This document shows, one piece after another, positions 232-28,352 of a DNA stretch of 33,413 bases. How positions within the stretch are numbered: the first letter of the stretch is position 1; each line of letters begins with the position of its first letter. The position numbers and the translations under genes are program-made. The DNA comes from a virus. The notes beneath the pieces are model-generated. The model was not told the origin of the DNA. It ran no database searches and worked only from the letters and a program-made list of their open reading frames with translations. The stretch is taken from the IMG/VR virus record IMGVR_UViG_3300047546_001988, positions 1-33,413 of that record; one strand, 5' to 3'.

Positions 232-2660
232 GCTTCAACCTTCTGAACAGTGCAGACGCTCCAACCAGCCACTGTAGACAACGCAGCTCCAGAATTTTGA
301 TAAACCAACACACGAATCCGATTTCCAGATGTCAGGTAACGAGTTGCGCAAGTAAATGCGTTGATTGACTGACCTGAGATTGGGGCGGTGTTCATGATTG
401 AAGGATCGTAATCTGATCCATTGATTTCAATCTTAGCCAAACGTCCACCAGTTGCGTTTGCGTCAAACTGCACACTTGCTTCAATGCGATACCATCCAGT
501 TGATTTTATGTAAAACGAATCATCGTTTGTTGATGCGTTGTGAATACCAGTTGAATCAAAAGCATCAGCATTCCACGCAATAGCCGTCCACGTTGCATTG
601 GAAATCGACTGTGCAGTATCTCTTCTGGACTGACAGATGTTTGGGCTGATTCCATTGTATGGTGTTGTGATCCCATCTTGGACATGACAATCAGTGACAG
701 TGTTTGCGTAATCCTTGTCGTATCCTGTTGAAGGATACTCAATCGGGAAAACCGTGTTCAGAAAGCCCGTCTGAGTTGTTTTTGTTGCTTGATTGTCTTT
801 TACAAAACAAGATTTGAATCGAATTGATCTTGGCTGGAAACCGTCAACCTCAGGCTCCCGACTGATGTAAAAACCTGCCCTGTAGGTCATGCTTGGCCTT
901 CCAGTGACAAATCCAGTGTTCACTGATTGGCACCCAACAAAATCGACTTTCTCCGGAATAGATGTCCCGGCAGTTTTCATGCCGCTAACCAAAAATCCAA
1001 TGTCGCCGCAATTTATTGCAGTGCATCCGGTCACAATGATGTCATGGCACGCATTGGCAAATTTGAACCCAACAGCAGCGCCTCTGTCTGCAACGCAACC
1101 TGTCAAACTGAAATTTCGATTCCCATCAACTCCGTCACCAGTTCCGGTGAAGTCGTAACACTGATCCACCAAAGTCACCACTGAGTTCGAGAGCGAAAAG
1201 CCTCTGGCATTTCCGCCAGCAATTCCGCGACTATAGATATTAGTGTACGCGGTTCCATTCCAAGCATACAAGCGAGCGACACGGTTTCCTGAACCTGTGT
1301 AATCCTCACAGTTAGAGAACCAGATACCTTGCACGACATCATCGGTGATCGTGCCTGTAAGCCGGGCGCGCATGTCGTGGACGTACGATCCCGAAATGTC
1401 AAAGTCTCGGCACCACCAAAGTCCGATCCCATTCCCGGAACCATCCCCGAAAACTTCCACGTCTTTGAGCCAGAAGTCATTTGAATACGTGGCTCCAGTG
1501 CCTTCGATTTTTAGACCAAAAACGAAATTCAATGCCCCGTTCGGATTGCTGTCGTAAGCTGCGTTCGGGTAAGGATTTGTTCCACGATCAATCGAAATGT
1601 TTTCGATGAAAAACCCAGAAATGTACTTAATGTACAGGGTCACACACGCCAGCACTCCAGACTGATTCGTCTGCTTCAGTGTGCAGTTCCGAAGCCCCTT
1701 GAACGACGAAGGCTGCACCGTCCCACTGACCGCGTACGTGAGCCCTCCGCCGTCTACCGGGAATCCGCTCTGAAGTGCCGCCAGAACCGCTGCCGTGTCA
1801 TCAGTCACGCCATCGCCAACGGCTCCGAAGTCTTTGAAGGACTTGAAATCTCTGGACTTGCTCTGCTGCGAACGCGGAACAGCACCGGTTCCCTCCTGCA
1901 CAAACTGGACCGATTCGCCTCCAATCGCGTCGTTTAAGACACGCGCGCCGACAAACAGAAATTTATCACCAGCCGTTGCGCCGGTCGCAAGTGTGACTGT
2001 CGTGCTGTTTGTCTCCGTGTAATCGCTTAGAGCAAGTCGCAGGCCATTCCGATACACCGCGAGGTTATTTGTCCCCGGAGTGTAAACAAGGCTGGTGAGC
2101 GTAAACACCGTTTGCGAGGCCGTTGCTGTTCTCGATTCAGTCGAAAACGTGGACGCATTCAGTTCCGCCGCGCTGTAATTCGTCAGGGCAGTCCCTCCAG
2201 CGTTCCACCCAAGCAACTGCGCCCCGCTGGCATTCGGAAGCTCTGTAGAGACGCCAGCAGCAAAATCCGAAACACGCGCCCGCATCGACCGAGACGAATC
2301 GGTCTTCAGCGTCTGAACCATCATCGTCAGCCGATCAAAGACGTCCTCGTGTGTCTCAGCGAAAAATGCACCCTGGTTCCGCAGATCCGTGGTTTGCGTG
2401 ATCGCGGAAATCGCGCGCCGGATCGTGATTCGGGTTCCGTTCGAGGGAGCCGTTCCAAACGTCACATTCCCGCCAGCATAGGAACCAACTCCCGAAACAG
2501 TGTAATGCGTTCCCTCGGTGTAATACGTTTCGGATCCTGACGGAAGTTCCCCGATCACAACAAGATCCGCAGATGCCAGCGCGCGGAACGTGTACGGGAA
2601 AACGGTTTGGGAACCGTTGGCGATTGCCGTGATGAGGTTGGTTTCAGATGCGACTGTCAT
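228..2660 (-). CDS. Tail fibre / tailspike with T7-like anchor, pectate-lyase-like shaft and C1q-like tip
   Basis: 810 residues. The start at ATG 2660 is chosen over an earlier in-frame codon because AGAGGA lies 7-9 bases upstream and the ATG overlaps the stop of the preceding gene as ATGA. Residues 1 to about 150 resemble the virion-anchoring N-terminal domain of T7 gp17-type fibres (VFPYTFRALASADLVV, later THEDVFDRLTMMVQ). Around residues 276-300 an FGAVGDGVTDDT motif marks a pectate-lyase-3-type right-handed beta-helix, the usual shaft of polysaccharide-binding or -degrading tailspikes. The last 110 residues (from about YIKSTGWYRIEASVQF) look like a C1q/TNF-type trimeric tip. By family this is the receptor-binding protein and it may depolymerise a surface glycan. 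Catalytic residues cannot be assigned by eye. It is the last large gene of the late operon, directly after the ejection proteins. Confidence 0.85.
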   Translation of the reverse strand: MTVASETNLITAIANGSQTVFPYTFRALASADLVVIGELPSGSETYYTEGTHYTVSGVGSYAGGNVTFGTAPSNGTRITIRRAISAITQTTDLRNQGAFFAETHEDVFDRLTMMVQTLKTDSSRSMRARVSDFAAGVSTELPNASGAQLLGWNAGGTALTNYSAAELNASTFSTESRTATASQTVFTLTSLVYTPGTNNLAVYRNGLRLALSDYTETNSTTVTLATGATAGDKFLFVGARVLNDAIGGESVQFVQEGTGAVPRSQQSKSRDFKSFKDFGAVGDGVTDDTAAVLAALQSGFPVDGGGLTYAVSGTVQPSSFKGLRNCTLKQTNQSGVLACVTLYIKYISGFFIENISIDRGTNPYPNAAYDSNPNGALNFVFGLKIEGTGATYSNDFWLKDVEVFGDGSGNGIGLWWCRDFDISGSYVHDMRARLTGTITDDVVQGIWFSNCEDYTGSGNRVARLYAWNGTAYTNIYSRGIAGGNARGFSLSNSVVTLVDQCYDFTGTGDGVDGNRNFSLTGCVADRGAAVGFKFANACHDIIVTGCTAINCGDIGFLVSGMKTAGTSIPEKVDFVGCQSVNTGFVTGRPSMTYRAGFYISREPEVDGFQPRSIRFKSCFVKDNQATKTTQTGFLNTVFPIEYPSTGYDKDYANTVTDCHVQDGITTPYNGISPNICQSRRDTAQSISNATWTAIAWNADAFDSTGIHNASTNDDSFYIKSTGWYRIEASVQFDANATGGRLAKIEINGSDYDPSIMNTAPISGQSINAFTCATRYLTSGNRIRVLVYQNSGAALSTVAGWSVCTVQKVEA

Positions 2661-5600
2661 TTGCGTTCCTCTTTGGTTGGGCCGACGATCAAGACGCCCG
2701 GGTTCGTTGTAGTACCTTCCCACAAAGCCTTTGCACCTTCAAATGTCTTCTGTAATGCAGGAGCTGGAAGGTTGAAAAACATGCCGCCCGTTCGAAACAT
2801 CGAACTGACAAGCGGACGGTCATAATCCCATTCAGTCGGATCAAGCCCCTTATCCTGCACTTCCTTCGAAATGCTCTGCGTGAGCTTTTGAATCTCCGGC
2901 AAAATCCTTGTTCCCGCCGGGCCCTCATACTTGCGCCCACTAAGCAGGCCGGGAATCTCGCGCACAAAAGGGAACATCGAAAAAACACTGTTCACCTGTT
3001 CTTTTGCAAGTTTCGCATACCAAGGATCTTCGTCGCCGTCGTCGCCTTTGAGTAAATCCTTGAGCAACATGGAAATCAGAAGCGGAAGCGTGTTCAAAAC
3101 GGACATATCAACCAACAACCTTCCAACGGACAGGGGATCTTTGAACTCTGTCCGCTTAATCAGTTGCACGTTTTGGTTAAGCAGCGCGTTCGAATAACTG
3201 TAAAACGTTGTCCACAGCTTAAAGAATGCGCCGCCCATGCGTTGCACCTTTGCCTGTGCCTTGATATGGCCGCCCCCCTGCGTATCTTCCACAAGTTTGT
3301 CGCCATACGCAATCGCATCGGCTTCAGAGGCATTCAGTTCTCCCTTGGCGTACAGATACCCGGCAAGCCAAGTCGGAATGTCTGCCAGCATCTGGCCTTT
3401 GCCAATCAAGTAGAAGTAGCTGTCGGTGATCGCAGTGCGCTTCGACGGATCGACCGTGTTGCGAAGTTCTGAAATGTCTCGATCCAGTGTCTTGGATCGC
3501 ATCCGCATGAACGTCGATTTTTCATGGATCACAGCAACTCGAGCTTCCAATTCGGAAGCGTCGCCAAGCCATGCGTGCAACGCCCGCGCCATGTACTTCG
3601 CCCCTTTCGGCCCGAGTTTAGGAATCGCGTTGGTGAACCCGTAGGTCTGTTGCAACACTGTCCACAGATTCCATGCCATGCCTGCTACAGTGGATCGTGT
3701 GCGAAGCCATGTTGCAACAGCCTCCCACGGAGATTTTTTCTCAAGGCCACCGGATGCAATGTCCATCACCACATCCCGCAATTCCGTCAGCATTTCCTCA
3801 CTGTAAAAACCAGCGATCGTCCCGGAAATTTCTGAGTCATTCAAAATCCGGTTCACGTCGATGAGCATCTCATGATGCGTCAGATCGTGAATCACCATTG
3901 CAACATGGTTGTGCAGCACATCGAACCCGATCTTCACCGGACGTTCGACGCCCTCAACACGAGCCTTGGTGTGCCCTCTGGCGGTTGTGGCAAACCCAAC
4001 TGCCCCTCGCATCATCTGCTTTGCCACATCTGCCGCTGATTCGGATTCCGCTTTTGCGCCAGTGTACTTGAGCGGGTAATATCCGCCGGGCATGACCCCG
4101 AACTTTGTCACCCATGGGGTAGGCTCCACCTTTTCAGGTGCGATGCCATACACACGTTCCTGCTTGGCTTTGATTGCAGGCCAGAAGGAATCAATAAAAT
4201 CCCAAACGGACTGCACAAACTTCACATCCTTTTCAGTCAGGGTCTCGAGGATTTTCTCAACATCCGACTCAGTAAACCCGTTGTAACCATCAACAAGTTT
4301 CTTGCGGTTGTCGGCATTCCCCCAGTTCAAAGCAATGCAAAGTCGGTCTTCATGTGAAAGCTGGAATGATCCAGTCACACCTTGGATGTTCACCCGCTTC
4401 TTGAACTGCGAACGCTCCTCGTCCGTGTAAACCTCATACAACTTCCGAAGCGTTTCGGTTGCTTCGGAGGTCATGATGTCTTGCGCGTTCTGTGCCTCGT
4501 TCACGGGCCGCTGAATGCCGTTGAACATCGGGCCAAATGGCTTGAACCGATCCAACTCCTCCACGATGTCCGTAAGCCGTCGCGTTGATTGGAAGAGCCC
4601 GTTGATAAGCCCGAATCGGCGCTCTGTTTTGCTCTTTGCCCTAGGCGAGACGACAGCGCCTTTCCGGCCTTCCTGCATGGAAGGGAGCGCTTCGCTCTTG
4701 AACGCTTCAAACGTGCGATCTCGCTCAGCTTTCAAAAGTTTGTTCTTCAGAGATGCCAGTTTGTCGATCTGCTTTACCGCATTGTAAACGTCGCGGAACT
4801 CCACAAACGTCATGGTGCGAAAGTCCTGCTCAAACGCGTCGTCGTAAAGCGCGTCAGAGATTTCAACCGTGAACCCTTGTTCCTCTTGGGATTCGATCCA
4901 CTTGCGAAGGTTGAGACGTTCTTCGATCCGAACTAGCGGCGTCGTCCGCAACTGGAACCGCTCCAGAATGGACTGCACCTGTTCACGGTACTGGTTGCCA
5001 GCCTTCCCAAGCCGCGCCAGCGCTTTGTCGTCGCTCATGCGCAGCAGGTAACGCTGCATTTTCTCCGTATCCTTCTGGATCTCACGAGCTGCCCGGTACA
5101 TGGCATGCCCAACAAGTTCCGCCTCTTTCTGTGCCAATGCCTGTTGGAAGTTTCCGGAAGCAACAGCCTTTGCCGCCGCTGCAGATGCCCGTTTTGCCGC
5201 CGCCAGATACAGACTCGGGCGAATCTCGCGAATCTGTTGCGCTGACAGCGTTCGATTCGCAGATTGCCGCGCCAGTTCGTTTATGAGCCGCAAATCCTGA
5301 AGTTGCGAGACTGCCAGTGCCTGCGCCTCGTTTGCGCGCAAAAGCCGCTTTGCCAGCAAGCCAAGCGGTGCGCCAGCCGCTACGCGTCCCACAGCCTGCT
5401 CATCAGCCCTGACACGCCTTGCCAGCGCCGACATCTCAGCGGCGATCACTTCATCGCGTTGTTCGTTCCTGACATCCTCAGCCGCTGCATCAGCAAGCTC
5501 CTGTTCATCCTGAATCAGGGACGGATAAAGAACGTCGAGCCTGCGTTGCGTTTCGGCCGAAACCGCTTTTGCAAAGGGTTCGATACTGGCAAGCGCTGTG

Positions 5601-8600
5601 ACAAGTTCATCGCCAGACTGGAAGCCGAGGATGTTTGCAGCCGCATCCGCATCCATGCCACCCTCAACCCGGTAAACACCCAGGTTCTTCAGCTTCTTCC
5701 GGACTTCCTTGGTGACGCTGGGAAGCGCGATAACGCTGTCTCGATCCAGTTTGAACGGCGTCACAATGCCGTTAACCTCTTCGCCGTTCGGTTGTTTGCC
5801 GAAACGTAAAAACGCCAAAGCGATGTGGTTCCGATCCGCGTTTAGTTCAGTGGAAACCTCTTCAAGGATCCGCTCTTTCTCATCCAAACGTTCCTGAGTC
5901 TGCGCATCACGGATTTCCTTCATGAGGCGCGTTTGCAGTTTCTCGCGGGCCTGCATGGACGCCTTAATAACGAACTTGGAGTAACGCTCCCACTGGTCAT
6001 CCGTCATGAACGCCGGTTTTTCCATGAACATCGGCTCAACACCATTCTCAGCTTGTGCGGCGTCGATTTCGTCCTCGGTCGCAACCATGCGATCGAACAC
6101 ACGGCGAATGTCATCTGACAAAGTGGCATCCAATTCAGGGTTCAGAAGATCCTTGTAAATTCGGAGAAGCCACATGCGCATGGATGCAAAAAAACCGCGC
6201 ACGTCTTCTGCTGGTGCCACGCCTTCCATCAGGTACTTCTCGAAACCACGGGCAAATGTCTCGTGCTGATCGCTTGTCGGATAATCCTGCGCATCATCCA
6301 TTTTCAGCCAACGCCGAATGGCATCCACGTCCGCCTTGAGGTCTCCCTGCGCTGCCCCGGCGTTGTCGATGTCCAACGACACTTCAAGGTACCAATGGGC
6401 CATCTCGTGCATGAAGGTGGAGGCATTTGCCTTCCTCAGCATGCCAATCGTGAACGGCCTGCGCCCCGCCCCGCGTTGTGTCGGATCGAATTGGATGAAC
6501 CCTCTGGCTGCAATTTGTTGCTGCTCCTGTTTAAGCGCAACACGCGGCAAAAGTTCCGCGCTGGAATCCTGAAACAGAATGCTTTTTTCCTCTGGATTAA
6601 ACCGCTCCGACAACGGGATGACGTTTCCGTCAGCGTCGCGGGTAACGGGGTCGGCGGATTTGATCTGATTGGAAGTGAAAACAATAGCTTCTTCCAGCCC
6701 ATTAAAATCCGGTTTTGAAAATCCTTTTTTTGGAAAAATTAAAATCCCATCGTATCCTTTTGCCTTGTAGGCATCTATATCCGCCTTGGAAAGGTCGTAA
6801 TGTTTTCCGCGTTCAGTGAATGTTGCGGTCTCATCCAGAATTAAAGGATTGTTTATTCTTAAATACGCTTCGGTCAAAACATCACCATAAATCAAAGCGT
6901 ATGATTTATCTCCTGTAAATCGAACAACCGGACCAGTTTTTCCGGCTTGTGGGTCAAAGATAATCCGCCTTGTTTTGTTGGCCCTATACACAGGCCCCAC
7001 ATCATACCCCGCCGCCTTCGCCGCTTCATCCACTAACCGCTGCGCCGTCTCCATGTCACCGGCTTCCACCGCTGCGAGATACTCCGCATCGCGCGCGTCC
7101 CCCTGATACAGTTCAGCGCTGACGGGTTCTTGGCCAGTGATCGTCACTGGAAACCGTTCGCGCATCTGTGGGAGCGATAAACCAGAACGCGCCCCAAGGA
7201 TGTACATCATGCGCGCAAAGATGCTCGCGTGTACCTTTGCAACTGCGTCTCTTCCGTAACGTCCAGTGTTCAAAAGCTGCTGCGTCAGCTCATCGGTGAA
7301 CGCTTTCACCTCAGGGTTTTTCGACGGAAACGCGGCCTGAAACTTGGCGTCCTCAGCGCTGATCTCTTGCAACTGAGTTGCAACTTGCGCTTGCTCAGAA
7401 CGGACAGAATCCAATTCAGATTGCAGTGAATTTGCTTTTTCAACTTCACTCGTGAGCGACTGGTATTCATTCGCCAGAGCTTGCATCTCGGGCGATTCAG
7501 CCTGTCCGGTCAGCGTCGCCACCAATGCCTCAGCGGGAGTCTGTGGGAACTGTTGCCGGATCGCATCAAGCCGCGTCTGGATCTCAGGAAGGCGCGCCTG
7601 AGCCTCAGCCACATCCGCCTCCAGTTTCACACGCTGTTCCTCAAGTGTCGCAGCCCGCGCCTGCAACTGTTCGCTGGACTGGTTCAGCTTCACGAGGTTA
7701 TCCAACGCCGCTTCCTGCGCGCGCAACTCCTCGGCCATCTCGTTCACCGTCGGAGCGGACGAGGACCCCAACCTCAAATCTCGAGAAAGCACCTCGTTGT
7801 GTTCGGTCGGTGCCAGTTTCTCGGTGTACTCGCCAATCGGGATTTCGATGTCAGACCCAGTTTGCCGGGCGCGATCGTAAACCTCAGCGGACCCAAGCAC
7901 CTGTTCGGCAACTGCGCGCGGGTCCATTTTCCGGGCCGAAAAATACGCATCCCATTTCTCGATTGGAGCAAACACCGATTGCACCGGCCCATTCTCTGCC
8001 GCCATGTTTCCGAGCATTGCCAGCATCCCCGGAACACGTTCACGCGTTTTCTGCTGAAGCGCTTCGTTGCCAAGTTCGCGGAAAAAATCAACCTGCGCCT
8101 GCGCCTGTTGAGCAAGTCGGTTCGATGCCGCAATCATCCCCGGCCCGTACCGCAACAACCCGGCACCAGGTACAAACGCCGCCGCCGCCGCCGCCGCCAA
8201 GTATCCCTCGGGATTAAAATCGGGTGTCTCAAGATCCGTGAGCGGTTGAGACAAAAGCGTCAGGATGTCACCGACGATTTCTTCGCCAGCCTCAGCGATG
8301 ATCCCATGAAACTGGACCTGTTTCAGCCGTTCCTTGAACTGTGGCCACCCGCTTGTGGGATGCAGCTTAAACCAACGCCCGACAAGCAACGCTTTCACCG
8401 CGTTCAGCTTTGTCGCTTCGGCAACCTTGGAGCCAAGTTTCCCTAGGAGTCCGCCTGAAAATTCAGACCCGATCTCGATAGAACTTTGTGACGCCGCCTT
8501 GAAAATCGACTTTGCCAAAGACTCATCGGGTTCCTTCAGGAAAGCCTCAAGGTCTCCAAACTCGTTTTCGCTGATGTTCTGAAGCGCCGGGATCCTGCGT

Positions 8601-9679
8601 TGCAACGTGTTCGCAGCAACTCGCACGGGATTGCCGACGGTTCCAACAAGCGCCGATTTCGTTGCCCATCCGCCGAGCTCGATTGCCGACTTCAACGGAA
8701 GGTTCATTGCCACCTGCCGCGCCGACTTGTTCAGCACACGTTTTGCCGTCGCCAAACCAAGGTTCACCGCAGCTTTCCTGCCCGCCGTCGCCAAACCTCC
8801 AGTGGCGGCCATCTCACCCATAAACGAAGGCATCTGGCTAATCCCAGAGCCAACCATTCCGCCCCAAGTGGTTCCGCGCCTGATCTCCGCGTCCACTTTC
8901 AGCAGATCAAGCCAATCCTTCGCAGTGCCTTCTCCGGAACCAACACGCCGCACCGTGTCATAAAGAGCATTTGCTTCCGCCAACTCAACGCCGCTTGCCA
9001 CAAACGGAATGAACTGACCACGCGCAACATTCCGCTGCACCGTGTCCAGAAACCCAGCAGGCTGAATCGGCAACTGAGTAACCTCCTTTGCCTGCGGAAC
9101 CGTGGACGGCTCGAGAACCTGGGGCGCTTCAGTGATCGCCGCACGCGCCCCCGGGGGCATGTACGGAGCAGCAGCAACCGCAGAGGGCTGGACGAGTGCT
9201 TCCGGAATTTCAGGGATCAGAGGCGAAAGCGCTTTCATGGTGCGCTCCAAGTTTTTGCCGAACACCCCCTTCAACTGTGGCACCTCTTCGATCTGATATC
9301 CCTGATCGCGCAGTGACCGAATCACCATGTTCCGCGCATCCTTGGACATCAGCCCGGGTTCAGCAGATCCCTCGCGCAAGACATCCTCAATTGCCATCAG
9401 CCGCTCAAGGTCGTCCTTTGTCGCCGCCGCGTTCATCGGGTCAGACAAAAGCTGTGCGGTTTTGGGATGCGAAGACTGCAACGCATCCACGTCGATCGAC
9501 GTCTCAGCACGTTTGCGCGCCCAGTCCAGATTTCTGGACACAAAATCAGCCGGAAGATTCAACGTCTTCCCAAGTCGCAACGCCTCAGAAGCCTGATCGA
9601 CAGTTGTGTCTTTCGCCAAAAACAGAGACCCAGCAAGCACTTGCGTGGACTCATCCACTGGAATTTGTTCGTCGATCAT
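2657..9679 (-). CDS. Giant polyvalent internal virion (ejection) protein with ADP-ribosyltransferase-like and HExxH domains
   Basis: 2340 residues, in the position of T7 gp16, between the gp15-like protein (ATGA overlap) and the tail fibre (ATGA overlap). Visible layout: an N-terminal helical region; an alanine-rich hydrophobic stretch near residue 500; a long coiled coil at about 645-783; an ART-like module at about 885-1010 with a VYR core (Y898, R899), a GYDG-type turn and EEAIVFTSNQIKSADP (E996, E997), as in ADP-ribosyltransferases of phage polyvalent proteins; and an HEMAHWYLE zincin-like motif at 1091-1095. The C-terminal 400 residues have the pattern of LPD38-type polyvalent-associated domains (VQRMGGAFFKLWTTFYSYSNA). 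Such proteins are packaged in the head and injected with the DNA, where they may modify host proteins. I see no lytic transglycosylase domain, unlike T7 gp16. The domains are by-eye family matches; activity is inferred. Confidence 0.85.
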   Translation of the reverse strand: MIDEQIPVDESTQVLAGSLFLAKDTTVDQASEALRLGKTLNLPADFVSRNLDWARKRAETSIDVDALQSSHPKTAQLLSDPMNAAATKDDLERLMAIEDVLREGSAEPGLMSKDARNMVIRSLRDQGYQIEEVPQLKGVFGKNLERTMKALSPLIPEIPEALVQPSAVAAAPYMPPGARAAITEAPQVLEPSTVPQAKEVTQLPIQPAGFLDTVQRNVARGQFIPFVASGVELAEANALYDTVRRVGSGEGTAKDWLDLLKVDAEIRRGTTWGGMVGSGISQMPSFMGEMAATGGLATAGRKAAVNLGLATAKRVLNKSARQVAMNLPLKSAIELGGWATKSALVGTVGNPVRVAANTLQRRIPALQNISENEFGDLEAFLKEPDESLAKSIFKAASQSSIEIGSEFSGGLLGKLGSKVAEATKLNAVKALLVGRWFKLHPTSGWPQFKERLKQVQFHGIIAEAGEEIVGDILTLLSQPLTDLETPDFNPEGYLAAAAAAAFVPGAGLLRYGPGMIAASNRLAQQAQAQVDFFRELGNEALQQKTRERVPGMLAMLGNMAAENGPVQSVFAPIEKWDAYFSARKMDPRAVAEQVLGSAEVYDRARQTGSDIEIPIGEYTEKLAPTEHNEVLSRDLRLGSSSAPTVNEMAEELRAQEAALDNLVKLNQSSEQLQARAATLEEQRVKLEADVAEAQARLPEIQTRLDAIRQQFPQTPAEALVATLTGQAESPEMQALANEYQSLTSEVEKANSLQSELDSVRSEQAQVATQLQEISAEDAKFQAAFPSKNPEVKAFTDELTQQLLNTGRYGRDAVAKVHASIFARMMYILGARSGLSLPQMRERFPVTITGQEPVSAELYQGDARDAEYLAAVEAGDMETAQRLVDEAAKAAGYDVGPVYRANKTRRIIFDPQAGKTGPVVRFTGDKSYALIYGDVLTEAYLRINNPLILDETATFTERGKHYDLSKADIDAYKAKGYDGILIFPKKGFSKPDFNGLEEAIVFTSNQIKSADPVTRDADGNVIPLSERFNPEEKSILFQDSSAELLPRVALKQEQQQIAARGFIQFDPTQRGAGRRPFTIGMLRKANASTFMHEMAHWYLEVSLDIDNAGAAQGDLKADVDAIRRWLKMDDAQDYPTSDQHETFARGFEKYLMEGVAPAEDVRGFFASMRMWLLRIYKDLLNPELDATLSDDIRRVFDRMVATEDEIDAAQAENGVEPMFMEKPAFMTDDQWERYSKFVIKASMQAREKLQTRLMKEIRDAQTQERLDEKERILEEVSTELNADRNHIALAFLRFGKQPNGEEVNGIVTPFKLDRDSVIALPSVTKEVRKKLKNLGVYRVEGGMDADAAANILGFQSGDELVTALASIEPFAKAVSAETQRRLDVLYPSLIQDEQELADAAAEDVRNEQRDEVIAAEMSALARRVRADEQAVGRVAAGAPLGLLAKRLLRANEAQALAVSQLQDLRLINELARQSANRTLSAQQIREIRPSLYLAAAKRASAAAAKAVASGNFQQALAQKEAELVGHAMYRAAREIQKDTEKMQRYLLRMSDDKALARLGKAGNQYREQVQSILERFQLRTTPLVRIEERLNLRKWIESQEEQGFTVEISDALYDDAFEQDFRTMTFVEFRDVYNAVKQIDKLASLKNKLLKAERDRTFEAFKSEALPSMQEGRKGAVVSPRAKSKTERRFGLINGLFQSTRRLTDIVEELDRFKPFGPMFNGIQRPVNEAQNAQDIMTSEATETLRKLYEVYTDEERSQFKKRVNIQGVTGSFQLSHEDRLCIALNWGNADNRKKLVDGYNGFTESDVEKILETLTEKDVKFVQSVWDFIDSFWPAIKAKQERVYGIAPEKVEPTPWVTKFGVMPGGYYPLKYTGAKAESESAADVAKQMMRGAVGFATTARGHTKARVEGVERPVKIGFDVLHNHVAMVIHDLTHHEMLIDVNRILNDSEISGTIAGFYSEEMLTELRDVVMDIASGGLEKKSPWEAVATWLRTRSTVAGMAWNLWTVLQQTYGFTNAIPKLGPKGAKYMARALHAWLGDASELEARVAVIHEKSTFMRMRSKTLDRDISELRNTVDPSKRTAITDSYFYLIGKGQMLADIPTWLAGYLYAKGELNASEADAIAYGDKLVEDTQGGGHIKAQAKVQRMGGAFFKLWTTFYSYSNALLNQNVQLIKRTEFKDPLSVGRLLVDMSVLNTLPLLISMLLKDLLKGDDGDEDPWYAKLAKEQVNSVFSMFPFVREIPGLLSGRKYEGPAGTRILPEIQKLTQSISKEVQDKGLDPTEWDYDRPLVSSMFRTGGMFFNLPAPALQKTFEGAKALWEGTTTNPGVLIVGPTKEERK

Positions 9680-21209: not shown

Positions 21210-21655
21210 AGTCGTCTTCTGTAAACAGTTTCAGCCTTGACGTAATTTAATCTCCTCAAAAGTGGCGAATAGTCAACAGCTTCTGTCACGTGTTGGTTCA
21301 CAAATTGCACTCCGTCCTTGACAAGCTGATCGTCACACCATTTGAGGAATTTCAACGCATTGAAGAACTTGCGAAAATCTTGTTTCAAAAACAACACAAG
21401 TTGTTCAGCTACAAGGCTTCCATTTTCGCCCCCACCCAAAAGCGCAAAACCATTGTATCCCACTATCATTCCTTCAGATCGCGCGATGTAACATCGAATC
21501 CGGTTGCGTTCTTCGAGTTGAAAGCATCCCTCGTGCGGAAACCGCACATTGTATTCTACTGGAACAAGTTCGCGAGCGTGTTCCTCGGCCAATGGTTTTA
21601 GTTCATCCAACAACTCATGTGTGTACGGTTCGAGAGCAAATGTAAGTTCTGTCAT
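21194..21655 (-). CDS. GNAT-like N-acetyltransferase domain protein
   Basis: 153 residues. The pattern of strands and helices fits a GNAT fold: RCYIARSEGMIVGYNGFALLG (strands 2-4), VAEQLVLFLKQDFRKFFNALKFLKWCDDQLVKDGVQFVNQHV (helix 3 and strand 5) and YSPLLRRLNYVKAETVYRRRL (C-terminal helix and strand). The canonical Q/R-x-x-G-x-G/A acetyl-CoA loop appears degenerate (LKQDFRKFF region), so it may be a substrate-specific or inactive member. Such genes are frequent between terminase and portal in podoviruses. It starts in an ATGA overlap with the large-terminase stop. Function unknown; assignment moderate. Confidence 0.7.
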   Translation of the reverse strand: MTELTFALEPYTHELLDELKPLAEEHARELVPVEYNVRFPHEGCFQLEERNRIRCYIARSEGMIVGYNGFALLGGGENGSLVAEQLVLFLKQDFRKFFNALKFLKWCDDQLVKDGVQFVNQHVTEAVDYSPLLRRLNYVKAETVYRRRLWVTQ

Positions 21656-22953
21656 GCGAAGGGGTCGTATTCGGTGAGCGCTTTTCCGCGATTCTCAGAC
21701 CATTGCGAGCCCGGCCCGCCTCTCGGCGCAACAGGATGCGCAAACGTCAACGCCAGCGCGTCTGCAAGGTCAGGAGACGGCATCCCGCGGCTTTTGATGT
21801 CGTCCTTGGATTCCAGTTCAAATTTCCCGCGCGCATTGGCAAAACTGTACTGCGGCGTACAGAGGTCAGCTTTCAGGTCCACCATGTCAGGGATTGCGCC
21901 CCCGGATTTCAACCAGTCGTTCATCGCGGACCACATCTCCGCGCGCTTGTTCGCGAACGTTTCCGATCCTGGGCGGCCCCCAAAGTCCACGCCGATCGGC
22001 GAAAACCCAAGTTGCAACAGTCGGTCAATAACGCCCTCTCCCCGTCCGGCATCGACAAACACCGCATCCGGTTGCCAGCTTGAAATGTACTTAGCCACGC
22101 GCCCCGCAAGTTCCATGTTCGAGATTTCCGAGAACACGACCGGTTCAAGCGCCACAATGCCCTGCCGCGGGAAAATCACACTCCTGTCTCCCCCGTACCG
22201 CGCGACATCCACCCCGAGCACTTTGGGGGCAAATTCGTATTCGGTGAGCGGAAAATGTTTCCCGGCAGCCGCCGCCACCACGTCAAAGTGAATCAGTTGA
22301 TTTTCCACAGCAGCATTAAAATCGTTCAGCATTTCTTGTCGGAACTGGTTTTCCGTCATGCTCTTGCGCATGGATTCAATCTCTTGAGGTGGCAAAGCGT
22401 TTGTGTGATAGCAATCCCAGCTTGCAACGTACCACTCAGGATCTTTCTTGGCCTTGAAATACAACTCGCTCAGAAGGTTGTGCCCTTTCACTGTTCCAAT
22501 GAACAGCACCCACCCCTTGCGATCCGAGACAGCCGGGCGGATAATCTCGCCCCAAATCTCGGGGCGCATGTCGGCAACCTCATCGAGCACCGCGCCGTCC
22601 AGGTAAAGCCCGCGCAATGCGTCCGGGTTGTCCGCCCCATTCAGGTAGATCGTTGCCCCGTTCGGGAACTTCACGGACAGTTCGGCGCTGTTCACTTCCA
22701 CACCCGGAACCATGCGGGAAAACGCTGTTAAGTATTTCCACGCGATGCGTTTAGCTTGTTTTAGGTAAGGCGCGACGTAGGTAAACTGAGCCAGCTTTTT
22801 TCGCGTAGTGAGCGCAGCGTGAATCAGTTGCATCACCGCCATGACGGTTTTCCCGCCCCGACGGTGAACGATTACGACCGAAAATCGTTTGATCCCAGCG
22901 TGCACGGCTTTTTGCCATTCGCGGGGACGATACTTGAGGTCGATCACATCCAT
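21652..22953 (-). CDS. Terminase large subunit
   Basis: 433 residues from ATG 22953. A longer TTG-initiated reading overlaps the 43-residue gene upstream and is not needed. The ATPase domain shows an adenine-contacting YRPREWQKAV segment, Walker A HRRGGKT (K35, T36) and Walker B AVLDE (121-125). The C-terminal RNase H-like nuclease shows the first metal-binding aspartate in GVDVARYGGD (D249) and a second in VFVDAGRGEG (D301), with a late ADALALTFAHP motif. It is the packaging motor and headful or end-cutting nuclease. No strong ribosome-binding site is visible, so translation is probably coupled to the small gene 4 bases upstream. Confidence 0.93.
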   Translation of the reverse strand: MDVIDLKYRPREWQKAVHAGIKRFSVVIVHRRGGKTVMAVMQLIHAALTTRKKLAQFTYVAPYLKQAKRIAWKYLTAFSRMVPGVEVNSAELSVKFPNGATIYLNGADNPDALRGLYLDGAVLDEVADMRPEIWGEIIRPAVSDRKGWVLFIGTVKGHNLLSELYFKAKKDPEWYVASWDCYHTNALPPQEIESMRKSMTENQFRQEMLNDFNAAVENQLIHFDVVAAAAGKHFPLTEYEFAPKVLGVDVARYGGDRSVIFPRQGIVALEPVVFSEISNMELAGRVAKYISSWQPDAVFVDAGRGEGVIDRLLQLGFSPIGVDFGGRPGSETFANKRAEMWSAMNDWLKSGGAIPDMVDLKADLCTPQYSFANARGKFELESKDDIKSRGMPSPDLADALALTFAHPVAPRGGPGSQWSENRGKALTEYDPFA

Positions 22954-22957
22954 TCGG

Positions 22958-23089
22958 CTACTTGCGTTTCGATTTCCCAGCAGCGGATAGTGCGATCGCA
23001 ACCGCTTGTTTCTGCGGTTTGCCGTGCTTTATCTCACGCCGGATGTTGGCGCTGATCGTTTTTGCGGATGATCCTTTTTTCAGTGGCAT
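22958..23089 (-). CDS. Small basic phage protein, MPLKKGSS...[12 protein letters not shown] type
   Basis: 43 residues from ATG 23089 to TAG 22958, located in the gap between small and large terminase genes. The sequence ([19 protein letters not shown], then [19 protein letters not shown]) belongs to a very common family of tiny basic phage proteins with a [12 protein letters not shown] core and lysine-rich ends. It is probably nucleic-acid binding; the role is unknown. It begins 5 bases after the small-terminase stop and ends 4 bases before the large-terminase ATG, so the three are read together. Confidence 0.85.
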
Positions 23090-23094
23090 AGGTT

Positions 23095-23367
23095 TTACTC
23101 TGTTGATTCGTCTTCGTCGTCCCGCGCCGCCTCTTCGAGCGGATCTTCTGGAGACCGTGCCACGCCAGTCACGACGTTGATCGACACAGGCCCACCATCC
23201 GCGCCGGTCACAGCGGACTCAGACGGGATCATTTTCAGGAGGAACTGACTGAAAAGTTTCGGATCAAGCTCGGCGAGCTGGCGCAGATACTCCGGCCCAC
23301 CAAGTTTCCCGTAAACCTTGAGCACGTCAGCCCGCAACTGAGCCCCAGGTGTTTTCGGTTTCGACAT
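23095..23367 (-). CDS. Probable small terminase subunit
   Basis: 90 residues from ATG 23367; a TTG six codons earlier is a weaker alternative. The sequence [43 protein letters not shown] resembles the C-terminal part of small-terminase-like or DNA-binding phage proteins encoded just before the large terminase. The end is strongly acidic ([13 protein letters not shown]). No helix-turn-helix is obvious. The call depends mainly on position as first gene of the late operon and on the 'PE-x-FLRQLA-x-ENP-x-AF' style core. It would recognise the packaging site, which may lie in the repeat-rich DNA beside it. Confidence 0.65.
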
Positions 23368-23437
23368 GGCCCCAGTGTGCCACAACCTGCGACTTTCGTC
23401 CCAAACGACTTTCGGAAGCCCCTCACTCTACGTGCAG

Positions 23438-23457
23438 CGTGGATTTGCGTGGATAAT
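23438..23457 (+). repeat. DnaA-box-like pair, copy 1
   Basis: Two nonamers 10 bp apart, CGTGGATTT at 23438 and CGTGGATAA at 23448. The second matches the reverse complement of the DnaA box TTATCCACA at 8 of 9 positions. The 20-bp unit recurs with 16 identical positions at 23638-23657, exactly 200 bp downstream. Confidence 0.55.
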
Positions 23458-23560
23458 TCTGGAGCTTGCCCGCGGCTGTCTACGCCTTGTCTACGCCTTG
23501 TCTACGGCGGTTTTCCTCGGGTGTAGACACGCAAAGTGCACAACATCAACACCTTCTGAG

Positions 23561-23582
23561 GTGTCTACGCTGTCTACGGCGG
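23561..23582 (+). repeat. Left arm of perfect 22-bp inverted repeat
   Basis: This arm contains two GTCTAC units 9 bp apart. Its exact reverse complement lies at 23766-23787, 183 bp away. The pair brackets the G7-TA-C7 palindrome and the second DnaA-box-like pair. Confidence 0.85.
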
Positions 23583-23612
23583 TTTTTCAAAATCAAACCG
23601 CAAATTCGCGCC

Positions 23613-23628
23613 GGGGGGGTACCCCCCC
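23613..23628. repeat. G7-TA-C7 perfect palindrome
   Basis: Sixteen bases with seven G, then TA, then seven C, followed closely by CCGGGGG. Two alternative GC hairpins can form (with the G-run on the left or on the right of the C-run). It sits inside the inverted-repeat bracket. It could be a protein site, a cruciform or a replication/packaging landmark. Confidence 0.7.
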
Positions 23629-23637
23629 TCCGGGGGT

Positions 23638-23657
23638 CGTGGATTATTGTGGATAGT
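23638..23657 (+). repeat. DnaA-box-like pair, copy 2
   Basis: CGTGGATTA at 23638 and TGTGGATAG at 23648, again exactly 10 bp apart. TGTGGATAG matches the DnaA box complement TGTGGATAA at 8 of 9 positions. See copy 1 at 23438-23457. Confidence 0.55.
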
Positions 23658-23765
23658 ATTTACAGGTATATGTTGTGAAATCAGGTGTAGACACTGTAGA
23701 CAAGTAGTAAGGGACTATATTAGAGCGACTTGCGTGTCTACGGTGGCACAATAGTGGTGTAGACA

Positions 23766-23787
23766 CCGCCGTAGACAGCGTAGACAC
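23766..23787 (-). repeat. Right arm of perfect 22-bp inverted repeat
   Basis: Exact reverse complement of 23561-23582. It contains two GTAGAC units 9 bp apart, and a third lies just outside at 23759. Confidence 0.85.
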
Positions 23788-23875
23788 AGAGAGGGCCGAA
23801 AACCGACGGATGCCCAAAACGGGTCAAACTGATACTTTCATCCCATTTCCGCGAGTTTCATGCGTTTCTCGCTCC

Positions 23876-23898
23876 TTATTGCAACTTGCTTGCAATAA
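23876..23898. promoter_or_regulatory. 23-bp palindromic operator candidate upstream of the tandem winged-helix gene
   Basis: A perfect 9-bp inverted repeat, TTATTGCAA and TTGCAATAA, with a 5-base spacer CTTGC. It ends 23 bases before ATG 23922, where a repressor would block transcription or initiation. Further TTGC half-sites follow (AATTGC at 23904, TTGCAAT at 23917). Its GCAACTTGC core recurs twice in the divergent promoter region at 30507-30526. Confidence 0.65.
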
Positions 23899-23921
23899 CT
23901 GGGAATTGCTAATCTGTTGCA

Positions 23922-24605
23922 ATGGAATCGCAACCCGTTGAAAAACAAGCAACTACGCAAGAGCAAATCGCGCAACTGATCGACGCATTGAAGTGTGTTT
24001 CTGGCGAAAGGGATCTGTTGCAGCGCTTTTTGAGCGACATTCGCGCGGCGATTTCTCGGCACGATGAAGCGCTGGAAGCCGCGCAAGATCCTTGGCTTGA
24101 AATACTTGAAAAACGTTTGGACAAAAACCGCGTTTACACGATGCGGATGATCCTCGTGGAGTGCATGAATTTGCAGTGGGAAGGGCATACGCGGTCGAAA
24201 ACGAGTCGGCTGCGAAACTGCCTGCGTAAACTCGGTTGGTACTCGGTTGAGGTGCAGGGGATGACGCGGCTTGTGGCTGCGTGGAAATTCCGCCACTACA
24301 TGCCCGAGGTGGACGACAGCGGGGTTTTACATGAAATCCCCGTGGGACCACTTGGAAAAGACGCTGGCGACCGTTTACGGGCGTTTTTGAACCCGGAACA
24401 AGCGTACTGCTCGAAAAACCTGCTCACGGCTGTTTTTGACGTGGCTCCGGGGTACAAACGCCAGAACCGGGAACGGCTCGTGGACCTCGCGAACCACATG
24501 CGCAGGCTCGGCTGGAAATCTGTATTGCGCCGGGATGCCAGAAAAAAGGTCGTCCGCGTTTGGGTGAAGACGCGTTCGGAAAATGAATTGGATGAATTTG
24601 CTTAA
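23922..24605 (+). CDS. Tandem winged-helix-like DNA-binding protein, related to the C-terminal domain of the phage primase
   Basis: 227 residues. Residues 12-55 form a charged helix or coiled coil. Residues 56-126 (DPWLEILEKRLDKNRVYTMRMILVE ... LRKLGW ... AAWKF) align closely with residues 644-716 of the VapE-type primase-helicase at 26185-28335 (DTWQEELLRELDSSRAYTVRQILTE ... LRRLGW ... RIWKF). Residues 147-216 form a second, more divergent copy (DAGDRLRAFL...AYCSKNLLTAVF ... MRRLGW ... RVWVK). The shared L/M-R-R/K-LGW core and C-terminal W identify the small domain found at the end of VapE/D5-type primases, probably a winged helix. No catalytic domain is present. It is likely a DNA-binding initiator, replication accessory or regulator. 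The ATG lies just behind a palindrome and beside the GTCTAC cluster, which it may bind. No strong ribosome-binding site is seen. Confidence 0.85.
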   Translation: MESQPVEKQATTQEQIAQLIDALKCVSGERDLLQRFLSDIRAAISRHDEALEAAQDPWLEILEKRLDKNRVYTMRMILVECMNLQWEGHTRSKTSRLRNCLRKLGWYSVEVQGMTRLVAAWKFRHYMPEVDDSGVLHEIPVGPLGKDAGDRLRAFLNPEQAYCSKNLLTAVFDVAPGYKRQNRERLVDLANHMRRLGWKSVLRRDARKKVVRVWVKTRSENELDEFA

Positions 24606-24613
24606 ACTTTGAG

Positions 24614-24626
24614 ACAGAAACTCTGT
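24614..24626. promoter_or_regulatory. Small interrupted palindrome upstream of the 127-residue gene
   Basis: ACAGA-AAC-TCTGT, overlapped by a second symmetry GAAAC-TCT-GTTTC (24617-24629), in the 43-bp gap before ATG 24649. It could be a weak hairpin or an operator; there is no T-tract. Confidence 0.35.
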
Positions 24627-24648
24627 TTCCGTGTAAGATTGAGCGCCT

Positions 24649-25032
24649 ATGGACAAAGTTTGCTTGTACGATTCTGCACCTACAGAAAACACTATTGAGG
24701 AAAAAACCGCTCCTGAAACTCCGAAACGCACTCGGCAAAGGAAGGTTGCTCCTGATTATTTGAAAGAATTGAAAAAGGCTTTTGCGGTTGCGCTTCGCGC
24801 AGACTGGAAAATGCGCTTTGTGAAAGTGCGCGAAAATCCGCCCGCGAAGAGGTTGAAGGACTACACGGACAGTGCAAACGCTTGGGAATCTGTGGCTTAC
24901 AGCGCGGCTGAACGTGCCAAGGTGTGCAAGCAGCTTGCGCTTTTGGAGCACGAAAAGCTGAATCCGCTGAAACAGTCTGAACCTACTGAAACTCCCGAGC
25001 CTGTAGTTGCATCCGAACTCGGCGGTGTGTAG
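24649..25032 (+). CDS. Hypothetical charged protein
   Basis: 127 residues, no family recognised. The N-terminal 30 residues are rich in T, E and P and likely disordered. A basic patch follows (PKRTRQRKVAPDYLKELKKAF), then helical regions (SANAWESVAYSAAERAKVCKQLALLEHEKL) and an acidic proline- and threonine-rich tail. This suggests a small nucleic-acid- or protein-binding factor. It follows the tandem winged-helix gene by 43 bases on the same strand and ends before the convergent terminator region. A minus-strand ORF across it (24424-24951) is taken as a shadow. Confidence 0.65.
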   Translation: MDKVCLYDSAPTENTIEEKTAPETPKRTRQRKVAPDYLKELKKAFAVALRADWKMRFVKVRENPPAKRLKDYTDSANAWESVAYSAAERAKVCKQLALLEHEKLNPLKQSEPTETPEPVVASELGGV

Positions 25033-25217: not shown

Positions 25218-25433
25218 CTAGTTTGTCACAGAGGCAAAATCTTGCAAGCGCGAAGTGATTTGATATTCGCTCGAATTGAGCTTTAGCGCTGCCGCGGCAT
25301 CACGTGCAGTGTCCGCCGACTCGAACACTGTTGCCCACTCGGGCCGCCCAGCAGGTACCCACGCATCGCTGCGAGGTTCGAGTAGCAACCAGCACCCCGT
25401 CTTCCTGTGCCGGATCCGGAGTTTTTGTTTCAT
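25218..25433 (-). CDS. Hypothetical small protein
   Basis: 71 residues, last gene of the replication operon. The start overlaps the preceding stop as ATGA. The N-terminus is basic (KQKLRIRHRKTGCWLLLEPRSDAWVP). It is followed by FESADTARDAAAALKL, a helix typical of small proteins in which a beta-hairpin precedes a helix that pairs field names with positions in phage DUF families. No family is named with confidence. It could be a host-interaction protein. Confidence 0.65.
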   Translation of the reverse strand: MKQKLRIRHRKTGCWLLLEPRSDAWVPAGRPEWATVFESADTARDAAAALKLNSSEYQITSRLQDFASVTN

Positions 25434-26184: not shown

Positions 26185-28335
26185 CTACCTGATTACGTGA
26201 AACTTCCAGATGCGCAAACTCTGACGCGTTGACGTTTTTGTGACAGAGGAAACCCAACCCAACCGGCGGAGGCACTCTTGCACGCGTAACTCCATGCGCC
26301 TGTCCTGCTTGGACATCTCCACCTTGATGATTTCGGTGAGAATCTGTCGCACCGTGTATGCCCGCGATGAGTCGAGTTCTCGAAGTAACTCCTCTTGCCA
26401 TGTGTCTTGAGACAAACGCTTTACGCATTCCGCCTCTTGCAAATCGCGGTCCACGTCCCACCACGATTCCCCGGCCCGAAACCGTTTCACCGCTTCCCCG
26501 AGCAACTGCGCCCGGTTTTCCCTGAGCCACGTCACATCGACCGAGGATCCGCATTCGACCGGCCAGAACCGGCGCGCCCCTGTCTCATCCTGATTCCAGT
26601 CCGACCGGTTCGTGGTGCCCGCAAACACGCATGAACGTGGATAGTCTGTCGTGTTGCGACCATACGGAGCCCGGTATCGGTCCACCTGACACGAAATGAT
26701 GCCCTTGATCCGCTCCTTCTCGACGCGGTTGAACGAGTGCATCTCCGAAATCTCGATGAGCCACTTCCCGTTCAAAACCCCGAAAAAGTCCTTCGAGGTG
26801 ATACTTTCGTGGCATTCCGTGAACCACTGCCCACCGAGCACCTGAAGCGCTGTGGATTTGCCGACGCCTTGCCCACCTTCGAGGATCGGCATCGTGTCCA
26901 CTTTGCATCCTGGTTGCAGCGCACGCGCCACCATGGAGATCAGCCAGCAACGCCCGACGGCCTGTGTGTAGGGTGTGGACTCACACGCGAACACGCGCGG
27001 AAGCCAAGTTTGAAGTCGGTTCACTCCATCCCACTGCGCGCCGCACTTCTCGAGAAAATCGGAAAGCGGATTCCGGATATTTTGCGCGGCCACCAGTTGC
27101 ACGGATTCGTGAACGGTTTCGATCGAGCATTTCGGCATCTCCAGCGTGGACTGAATCTCCCGGGTGAGCATCCGATCGTCCGAGTCCGACCACTCGCGTG
27201 TGTCTCCGTTCCAGTCGGTGCAGATTTTTTTCGAAAACTCGTCTCTCCAAAATCGCCCGCGAACAACGTCCCAGCGCTCCAAAATTTTGCAAATGTTGTC
27301 GAGGTTGCATACCGGGACGAGGGTGCTCGAAAGAATGAGCCCGAGATCCTCCCAGAGTTGCGCCCGGTCGATGACCTTCGTATCCGCTGCCGCTTGTTTC
27401 TCTGCCGTGGATTGCGGCATCCACACGCGCACCCGGCTTTTCGCCCACGCTGCAATCGCTCGCCAATTCGTCATCCCCCCCTCGATTGCGTCCGCTGCGT
27501 CCCATCCAGGCGGCTGTCCGGACACGTCGAGGATTTTAATCTCCGCCGCCCGATCAGCGAGCAACTCAGCGATCCGGCCCATGGCACCGATCCCAGGTTC
27601 GTCCGCATCTGGCCAGAGCAAAACTTTCCGCCCAAACAGCGGCGAAAAATCAGTGTGGCGGTCTGCCATCGCGCCCCCGGCCCAGCATGTCACAACGTAA
27701 CTCGATGTGATCCGACTGAGTGCGTCGGCGCATTTCTCGCCCTCAACCACAAGAATCGGCGCTTCCAAGCGGCCCTCGATCGCCGGGAGGTTGTACAGCG
27801 GACGTTTCCCGGGCCACGCCTTATTCACCCACGCGGCTGCCTTTGTGTCCCACGACCATGGGCAAAACTGTTTGCGCCCCCCGTCCCGTTCGTGCCGGGT
27901 AACGTAAAACGCTATCTGCTCGCTGGTCGTCTCATAACGGTAAATCGCAGTCGGCGCACCGTAACGATCCCACGCTGGCAACCCTGCGGCTTCTGGTGGC
28001 AAGCCGATTTGACCCGCGTCCTTCTGCTGCGGCTTCACGGCCACCGCCACTGGAGCAGTTCCAGAGAGCCGGTCAAACGCCTCGGCCTGAGTAATGCCAT
28101 CCCGCGCGGCAAATAGCGAGATGAGATCCGAGCCGGAGAATTGTTCCGGGGACGCAAAATCTGCCCAAGCGCCTGTTTTCAGATTCACTGACAACGACTT
28201 GCCGGGAGAGCCATGCACGTCCCCGATTTTGAACTCACCGGAGACAATTCGCCCCTGCGGATACCACGATTGCAAAAGTTCCTGCGCCCCATGAAGTAGG
28301 GACGCAGCCAGCGCTGAGAAGTCACGGTTTCTCAT
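26185..28335 (-). CDS. VapE/D5-type primase-helicase with Toprim-like domain
   Basis: 716 residues from ATG 28335; a GTG three codons earlier is possible. Residues about 35-95 carry the primase N-terminal pattern (GEFKIGDVHGSPGKSLSVNLKTGAWADFA ... SGSDLISLFAARDG). A Toprim-like domain at about 190-285 shows ILVVEGEKCADALS (EGEK at 198-201) and LLWPDADEPG. The helicase domain at about 420-625 belongs to the VirE/VapE P-loop family: Walker A GGQGVGKST (K493), GKWLIEISEM (Walker B region), and GTTNRSDWNQDETGARRFWPV. Residues 644-716 are a C-terminal winged-helix-like domain that recurs twice in the protein at 23922-24605. It primes and unwinds DNA at the fork. It follows the VRR-NUC gene by 17 bases. 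Confidence 0.9.
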   Translation of the reverse strand: MRNRDFSALAASLLHGAQELLQSWYPQGRIVSGEFKIGDVHGSPGKSLSVNLKTGAWADFASPEQFSGSDLISLFAARDGITQAEAFDRLSGTAPVAVAVKPQQKDAGQIGLPPEAAGLPAWDRYGAPTAIYRYETTSEQIAFYVTRHERDGGRKQFCPWSWDTKAAAWVNKAWPGKRPLYNLPAIEGRLEAPILVVEGEKCADALSRITSSYVVTCWAGGAMADRHTDFSPLFGRKVLLWPDADEPGIGAMGRIAELLADRAAEIKILDVSGQPPGWDAADAIEGGMTNWRAIAAWAKSRVRVWMPQSTAEKQAAADTKVIDRAQLWEDLGLILSSTLVPVCNLDNICKILERWDVVRGRFWRDEFSKKICTDWNGDTREWSDSDDRMLTREIQSTLEMPKCSIETVHESVQLVAAQNIRNPLSDFLEKCGAQWDGVNRLQTWLPRVFACESTPYTQAVGRCWLISMVARALQPGCKVDTMPILEGGQGVGKSTALQVLGGQWFTECHESITSKDFFGVLNGKWLIEISEMHSFNRVEKERIKGIISCQVDRYRAPYGRNTTDYPRSCVFAGTTNRSDWNQDETGARRFWPVECGSSVDVTWLRENRAQLLGEAVKRFRAGESWWDVDRDLQEAECVKRLSQDTWQEELLRELDSSRAYTVRQILTEIIKVEMSKQDRRMELRVQECLRRLGWVSSVTKTSTRQSLRIWKFHVIR

Positions 28336-28352
28336 TTTGCCCACACTGGAGA

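Follow-up and report, generated by a model that had tools for sequence, protein, structure and literature searches.

The window analyzed here, a 33,413-nucleotide stretch of viral DNA, contains a gene-free region crowded with short repeats, for which an earlier note had offered three functions: an iteron-type origin, a partition site or a multi-operator control region. The questions raised by this locus were which of these functions it serves and which protein reads it.

The hexamer GTCTAC was found 17 times in the window, and 12 of these copies fell within positions 23478-23785, six on each strand, as the earlier note had described. The comparison with shuffled sequence that it had suggested confirmed the enrichment: 100 dinucleotide shuffles of the window gave 4.4 +/- 2.0 copies with a maximum of 9, and the highest copy number of any 7-mer per 350 bp was 12 in the real sequence versus 3-5 in 60 simulations under a trinucleotide model. 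GTCTAC is present as described, but the conserved word is longer, given that all 12 array sites read TGTCTAC followed by G or A (TGTCTACR). Only two exact copies of TGTCTAC were found outside the array in the whole 33.4-kb window, and no copy with one mismatch was detected in 23401-23900. In the literature searched, neither TGTCTAC as a named site nor VapE together with iterons was found.

The array (23477-23786) is an inverted duplication as a whole, a feature missed in the first reading. Its left set (23477-23577) comprises sites at 23477+, 23488+, 23499+, 23523-, 23562+ and 23571+, in the orientation +++-++ and with spacings of 11, 11, 24, 39 and 9 bp. The right set (23687-23786; sites at 23687-, 23696-, 23735+, 23759-, 23771- and 23780-), when read on the other strand, shows the same +++-++ order and spacings of 9, 12, 24, 39 and 9 bp. 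The 16-mer reported to be repeated at 23499 and 23571 was confirmed, and the inverted arms described as 22 bp long are exact, but extend over 23 bp (23561-23583 on the plus strand and 23765-23787 on the minus strand).

The two six-site halves flank an AT-richer centre (23578-23686), in which the AT content rises up to 64% at 23651-23700; the centre is a candidate melting region. Its left side is rich in G+C and carries the palindrome GGGGGGGTACCCCCCC (G7TAC7, 23613-23628), whose counterpart in the related contig L009 is GGGGGT...ACCCCC and whose folding in the window was no more stable than that of shuffled sequences (z -0.3). Two DnaA-box-like sequences on the minus strand, CGTGGATAA (23448-23456) and TGTGGATAG in the array centre (23648-23656), each matched at 8 of 9 positions, which is weak evidence, as is the base composition of the centre. 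No Rfam family was detected in 23000-24200, and the GC-skew check suggested for mapping the replication start gave no clear switch at the array.

Regarding the genes around the array, the large terminase subunit gene terL (21652-23001, minus strand) is preceded by a small 96-aa ORF (23095-23385, minus strand) whose start adjoins the array. This ORF is proposed to be terS by its position and conservation, and no family was detected for it in Pfam or PHROGs. On the other side, a gene for a 227-aa protein (23922-24605) and a 127-aa ORF without family match (24649-25032), both on the plus strand, are followed by a conserved 71-aa gene (25218-25433, minus strand). A perfect 9-bp inverted repeat, TTATTGCAA-cttgc-TTGCAATAA (23876-23898), lies just upstream of the 227-aa gene and folds well above shuffled sequences (z -4.6); it may be an operator or a leader hairpin. 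The gene encoding a VapE-like SF3 primase-helicase of 719 aa (26185-28344, minus strand) is placed so that the array lies 3' of it, 2.4 kb off and with five small ORFs between. The array had been said to separate late and early operons; terS and all the late genes indeed run leftward and the 227-aa and 127-aa genes rightward, but the genes for VapE, a VRR nuclease, SSB and a helicase run leftward as well, towards the array. Virion genes for the terminase, portal/head-tail connector, major head protein and tail proteins are present in the window, and a 2340-aa protein encoded at 2657-9679, of which ~1270 residues are related to PHROG 9880 (function unknown), is possibly a very large internal virion protein.

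The conservation of the array was analyzed in sister contigs, all of them fragments, which were gathered as TerL relatives with sequence on the array side. Five of them (L009, L010, L083, L104, and L159) keep an array upstream of terS/terL, with 12 TGTCTAC sites in L009 and L010 and 9 in the other three, located between terS and the homolog of the 71-aa gene, which here neighbours the array directly. The spacings of the right half were 9, 39, 23, 12 and 12 bp in L009 versus 9, 39, 24, 12 and 9 bp in the window. The expectation that relatives with the same terL/terS order would carry the cluster was borne out, in one case with a changed word: L007, whose TerL is 72% identical, has an array at the same place built from TGTCCA/TGGCCA at steps of ~10-11 bp. 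Several TGTGTACA-like sites were also seen in this changed-word array (L007 720-1110). The two-gene cassette that separates the array from the 71-aa gene in the window (23922-25032) is absent there in the sister contigs, so the array is independent of the 227-aa gene. No vapE gene was seen in these fragmentary contigs, and the pairing of vapE and array within this phage group was therefore seen only in the window.

Furthermore, a scan of the collection for three close TGTCTAC sites returned at least 119 contigs. Arrays at exactly 15-bp steps inside ORFs (L058, L060, L077, L100, and others) were apparently coding repeats and not origins, and were left out; coding repeats may also account for some of the ORF-internal arrays with other fixed steps. 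Many of the remaining contigs among the matches listed carried intergenic arrays of 8-12 sites built on related templates. The recurring template consists of an outer triple, an inverted single site, a gap of ~40 bp and an inner pair 9 bp apart, followed by a centre of 60-116 bp and the mirrored half. Among the matches listed, SF3-type primase-helicases adjoin TGTCTAC arrays in unrelated phages: PF05272 VapE in L061, L131, L120, and L150, D5_N with a Pox_D5 helicase in L064 and L067, a DUF5906 helicase in L139 and L146, and a Pox_D5 helicase in L065.

In L059/L110/L116, L089, and L094, no helicase was recognised beside the array in the stretch covered. Additionally, L059 (2607-2829), L110 (2329-2561), L116, L127, and L138 carry G+C-rich, 12-site TGTCTAC arrays with the outer triples pointing away from the centre; their neighbour is a 251-aa protein that matched nothing in Pfam, and a helicase was not recognised nearby. 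The phages with D5_N/Pox_D5 helicases (L064, L067, L099, L158, and L126) share the iteron word of the window and nearly the same spacing template despite their different helicase family.

The linkage between arrays and vapE was examined without reference to any motif in 144 non-redundant VapE loci from viral contigs and named bacterial genomes, gathered by a VapE protein profile only. Profile scans worked, whereas the window VapE and the 227-aa protein alone were poor scan and tblastn queries. In 89 of the 144 loci, versus 13.8 expected by length, the best 7-mer cluster of the locus was located between -120 and +800 relative to the vapE stop, a frequency that describes these samples and not all VapE phages, because the loci were those nearest the query among the matches listed. 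A cluster of at least 6 copies was absent in 55 of the 144 loci; 76 of the 89 strong clusters (>=6 copies) lay in the same interval behind vapE (p = 2e-63). The largest internal gap of the arrays was AT-richer than the array (0.62 versus 0.55, p = 9e-6). The two halves had opposite majority orientations in no more than 31 of the 76 arrays; mirror symmetry is thus frequent, but not universal.

The profile seeds were proteins from TGTCTAC loci, yet the words found behind vapE were mostly others, and they varied from locus to locus (TGTCTAC, TGTTACC, TGTTGCC, TGTCAAC, TGTAAAC, GTCCCAC, and others). In some loci, for example in several Pseudomonas prophages, the cluster lay 380-650 bp past vapE. 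The loci L316 (a gammaproteobacterial MAG) and L320 (Sphingomonas abaci) combine VapE C-termini similar to that of the window with seven TGTCTAC sites each, directly 3' of vapE.

The strongest evidence on how the word is read came from a natural swap between two near-identical prophages, L199 and L200. Nine residues distinguish their 806-aa VapE proteins, and all nine fall within 785-805, where the C-terminal winged helix ends. Where the iterons of the adjoining origins align (~6190-6560), L199 carries TGTTACC and L200 carries TGTCTAC, and the DNA on either side is essentially identical. This swap argues that VapE recognises the iterons through its tail and that TGTCTAC is one of these iteron words; it is through these relatives that a match between initiator C-terminus and iteron word was found. 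Among pairs with similar cores, wing identity was 0.71 with the same word versus 0.59 with a different word, a trend not leaned on here because the core identity differed too (0.89 versus 0.82). A simple rule equating the wing motif (R/K).S.R.W with TGTCTAC, promising on inspection by eye, was discarded: the motif was carried by one of the seven TGTCTAC loci and by four of the 116 remaining loci (p = 0.26), with a helicase filter in the script that missed several loci, and L269 carries it in the wing together with the iteron word CGTAACC.

The window VapE was assigned to PF05272 (E 7.4e-74), and the G.QG..KST block of its ATPase motifs was invariant in the VapE alignment. The model of its last 385 residues (pLDDT 94) shows an SF3 ATPase and, on its C-terminal side, a winged helix (residues ~635-719), the domain proposed to bind the iterons. 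The best solved match of this model was PriRep1 bound to dsDNA (7pds; Z 33.5, rmsd 2.9 over 380 residues), which carries the label 'similar to D. nodosus vapE' and was also matched by sequence profile (E 8e-85). The protein is, as modelled, a helicase with a C-terminal DNA-binding domain, and is predicted to be self-loading.

The gene next to the array had been taken to encode a tandem DNA-binding protein, and in the 227-aa protein an N-terminal coiled coil (model residues 6-54) is indeed followed by two winged-helix domains, each of them a homolog of the VapE C-terminus. Two matches to the VapE C-terminal domain were obtained with a profile seeded by these two domains together with the VapE tail. 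A wider VapE-tail profile from many loci, whose 58 seeds may include the window domains, found both (2e-17 and 4e-11), and PHROGs independently aligned the protein with the C-terminal portion of one of its helicase families (E 0.002). The first domain aligns directly with VapE tails and is 32% identical to that of the window VapE. In the model, the coiled coil precedes two winged helices, of which the first was predicted with confidence (pLDDT ~95) and the second with less certainty. The structure search gave generic winged-helix matches only (best Z 7.3; PriRep1, Z 6.2), so the fold alone does not place this protein and it is the sequence profile that places it.

Proteins with a BRO-N domain that end in a VapE-C-terminus-like winged helix were observed in prophages (L393:1528-2433, L388:1442-2266, L314:743-1630, and L394:8812-9627). 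Such proteins were seen in Pseudomonas prophages that carry vapE; second proteins with a VapE-type winged helix thus recur, and stand-alone second iteron binders may be common.

The array, its symmetry, its conservation, the linkage of such arrays to vapE 3' ends and the co-change of VapE wing and iteron word were all established by computation. Together they make the array very probably a SaPI/PICI-type replication origin of the phage, in which two inverted TGTCTACR sets flank an AT-richer centre and two opposed hexamers of a VapE-like SF3 helicase would fire it in both directions. Replication would then start at the array. The initiator is best explained as the helicase encoded at 26185-28344, and not as SSB, terminase or a DnaA/RepA-type protein. 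Among those window proteins that were compared with Pfam or PHROGs, no initiator of the RepA, Rep_3 or TrfA type was found. VapE would bind the iterons through its C-terminal winged helix, two oppositely oriented hexamers would be loaded, one on each mirror half, and these would melt the centre and move outward to give bidirectional replication, assisted by the phage SSB and perhaps by host DnaA. This mechanism is proposed by extension from SaPI Rep, Cch2 and PriRep1 (PMC7581432, PMC6092414).

Other functions of the array were weighed against this origin. A multi-operator control region, on which the 227-aa protein and/or VapE would control the divergent promoters of terS (late) and the 227-aa gene, agrees with the position of the array between divergent genes, next to a gene with two copies of the iteron-binding domain, and the iterons of origins in iteron replicons commonly double as operators. 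This alternative is nevertheless improbable, given that the sister contigs keep the array without the 227-aa gene there, that the same arrays are found elsewhere directly behind helicase genes, and that the only promoter-like match found was a weak one (mean of 0.5 in shuffles). A packaging (pac) site read by the adjoining small terminase would fit the location just upstream of the proposed terS and terL in this phage group; it is very unlikely, as the same word and architecture occur beside helicases in phages without an adjoining terminase gene and the 96-aa ORF has no detected family. Least probable of all is a partition centromere, or an integration attP with arm sites. Clustered, oppositely oriented sites at helical spacing can also be displayed by such elements, but no gene for a ParA-type protein or an integrase was noticed in those window ORFs that were read or scanned, and the array is accounted for by its association with the 3' ends of helicase genes. 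Of the three functions first offered, the evidence selected the origin over the other two.

The array is a real, conserved feature and most likely a VapE-type iteron origin, here in a tailed phage that also encodes an unusual, putative accessory binder. The 227-aa protein would be a putative binder of the iteron sites, acting as an accessory regulator or a competitor. A more specific role, tentative and somewhat unlikely, is that of a weapon or governor made from the DNA-reading head of the initiator: an acquired cassette, absent in the sister contigs, whose product would dimerize through the coiled coil, bringing two and hence four winged helices together, and would bind TGTCTAC either to handcuff its own origin at the late-gene switch or to occupy the same-word origins of co-infecting phages and satellites. 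If this were true, it would suggest, together with the L199/L200 swap, that the origin words of VapE phages diversify under competition between elements. The same pair shows winged-helix residues changing with the iteron word, which makes a recognition code directly testable. The name VapE still refers to virulence, and in phage genomes the protein mostly goes without an interpretation; the present data point to a role as origin-binding initiator, and the origins of many phages and prophages may be readable from sequence as a clustered 7-mer after vapE.

Among known systems, the alpha protein of phage P4 is also a primase-helicase whose C-terminus binds iterons (ori1/crr); P4 differs in having another iteron word and two separate sites. 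For the 227-aa protein, a precedent is provided by Odn, the origin-directed nuclease of ICP1, a separate protein with the origin-binding domain of the initiator of PLE satellites, which recognises its iterons and so uses a borrowed domain against a competitor (PMC8263062). In contrast to Odn, the 227-aa protein has no detected nuclease domain and is encoded beside the origin of its own phage, and PLE RepA belongs to a different protein family.

SaPI Rep and SCCmec Cch2 bind iterons located 3' of their own genes, and in the case of Cch2 binding was demonstrated for the C-terminal domain on its own (PMC7581432). The direct repeats in the putative origin of Cch2, likewise bound 3' of the helicase gene, are only three AAGTG copies, and its helicase is of the D5 type, whereas that of the window is of the VapE type. 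The closest likeness was to the SaPI/PICI origins, in which an AT-richer centre lies between two short-iteron sets, the SF3-type helicase is self-loading and has a C-terminal DNA-binding domain, and Rep and ori form a sequence-specific pair (PMC6092414, PMC7581432): the window has the mirror halves 23477-23577 and 23687-23786 around an AT-richer centre, and PriRep1 (7pds) is the best structural match of its VapE. It differs from them in its extra protein with two copies of the binding domain and in the position of the origin, which follows the 3' end of the initiator gene directly in most of the other VapE loci with an array, but not in the window. The window also comes from a tailed phage, which supplies its own portal, capsid, tail and terminase, and not from a satellite. 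The organisation of SaPI/PICI origins has been stated to be known in no other bacterial replicon (PMC6092414), and the array described here would extend this design, regarded as peculiar to PICIs, to tailed phages.
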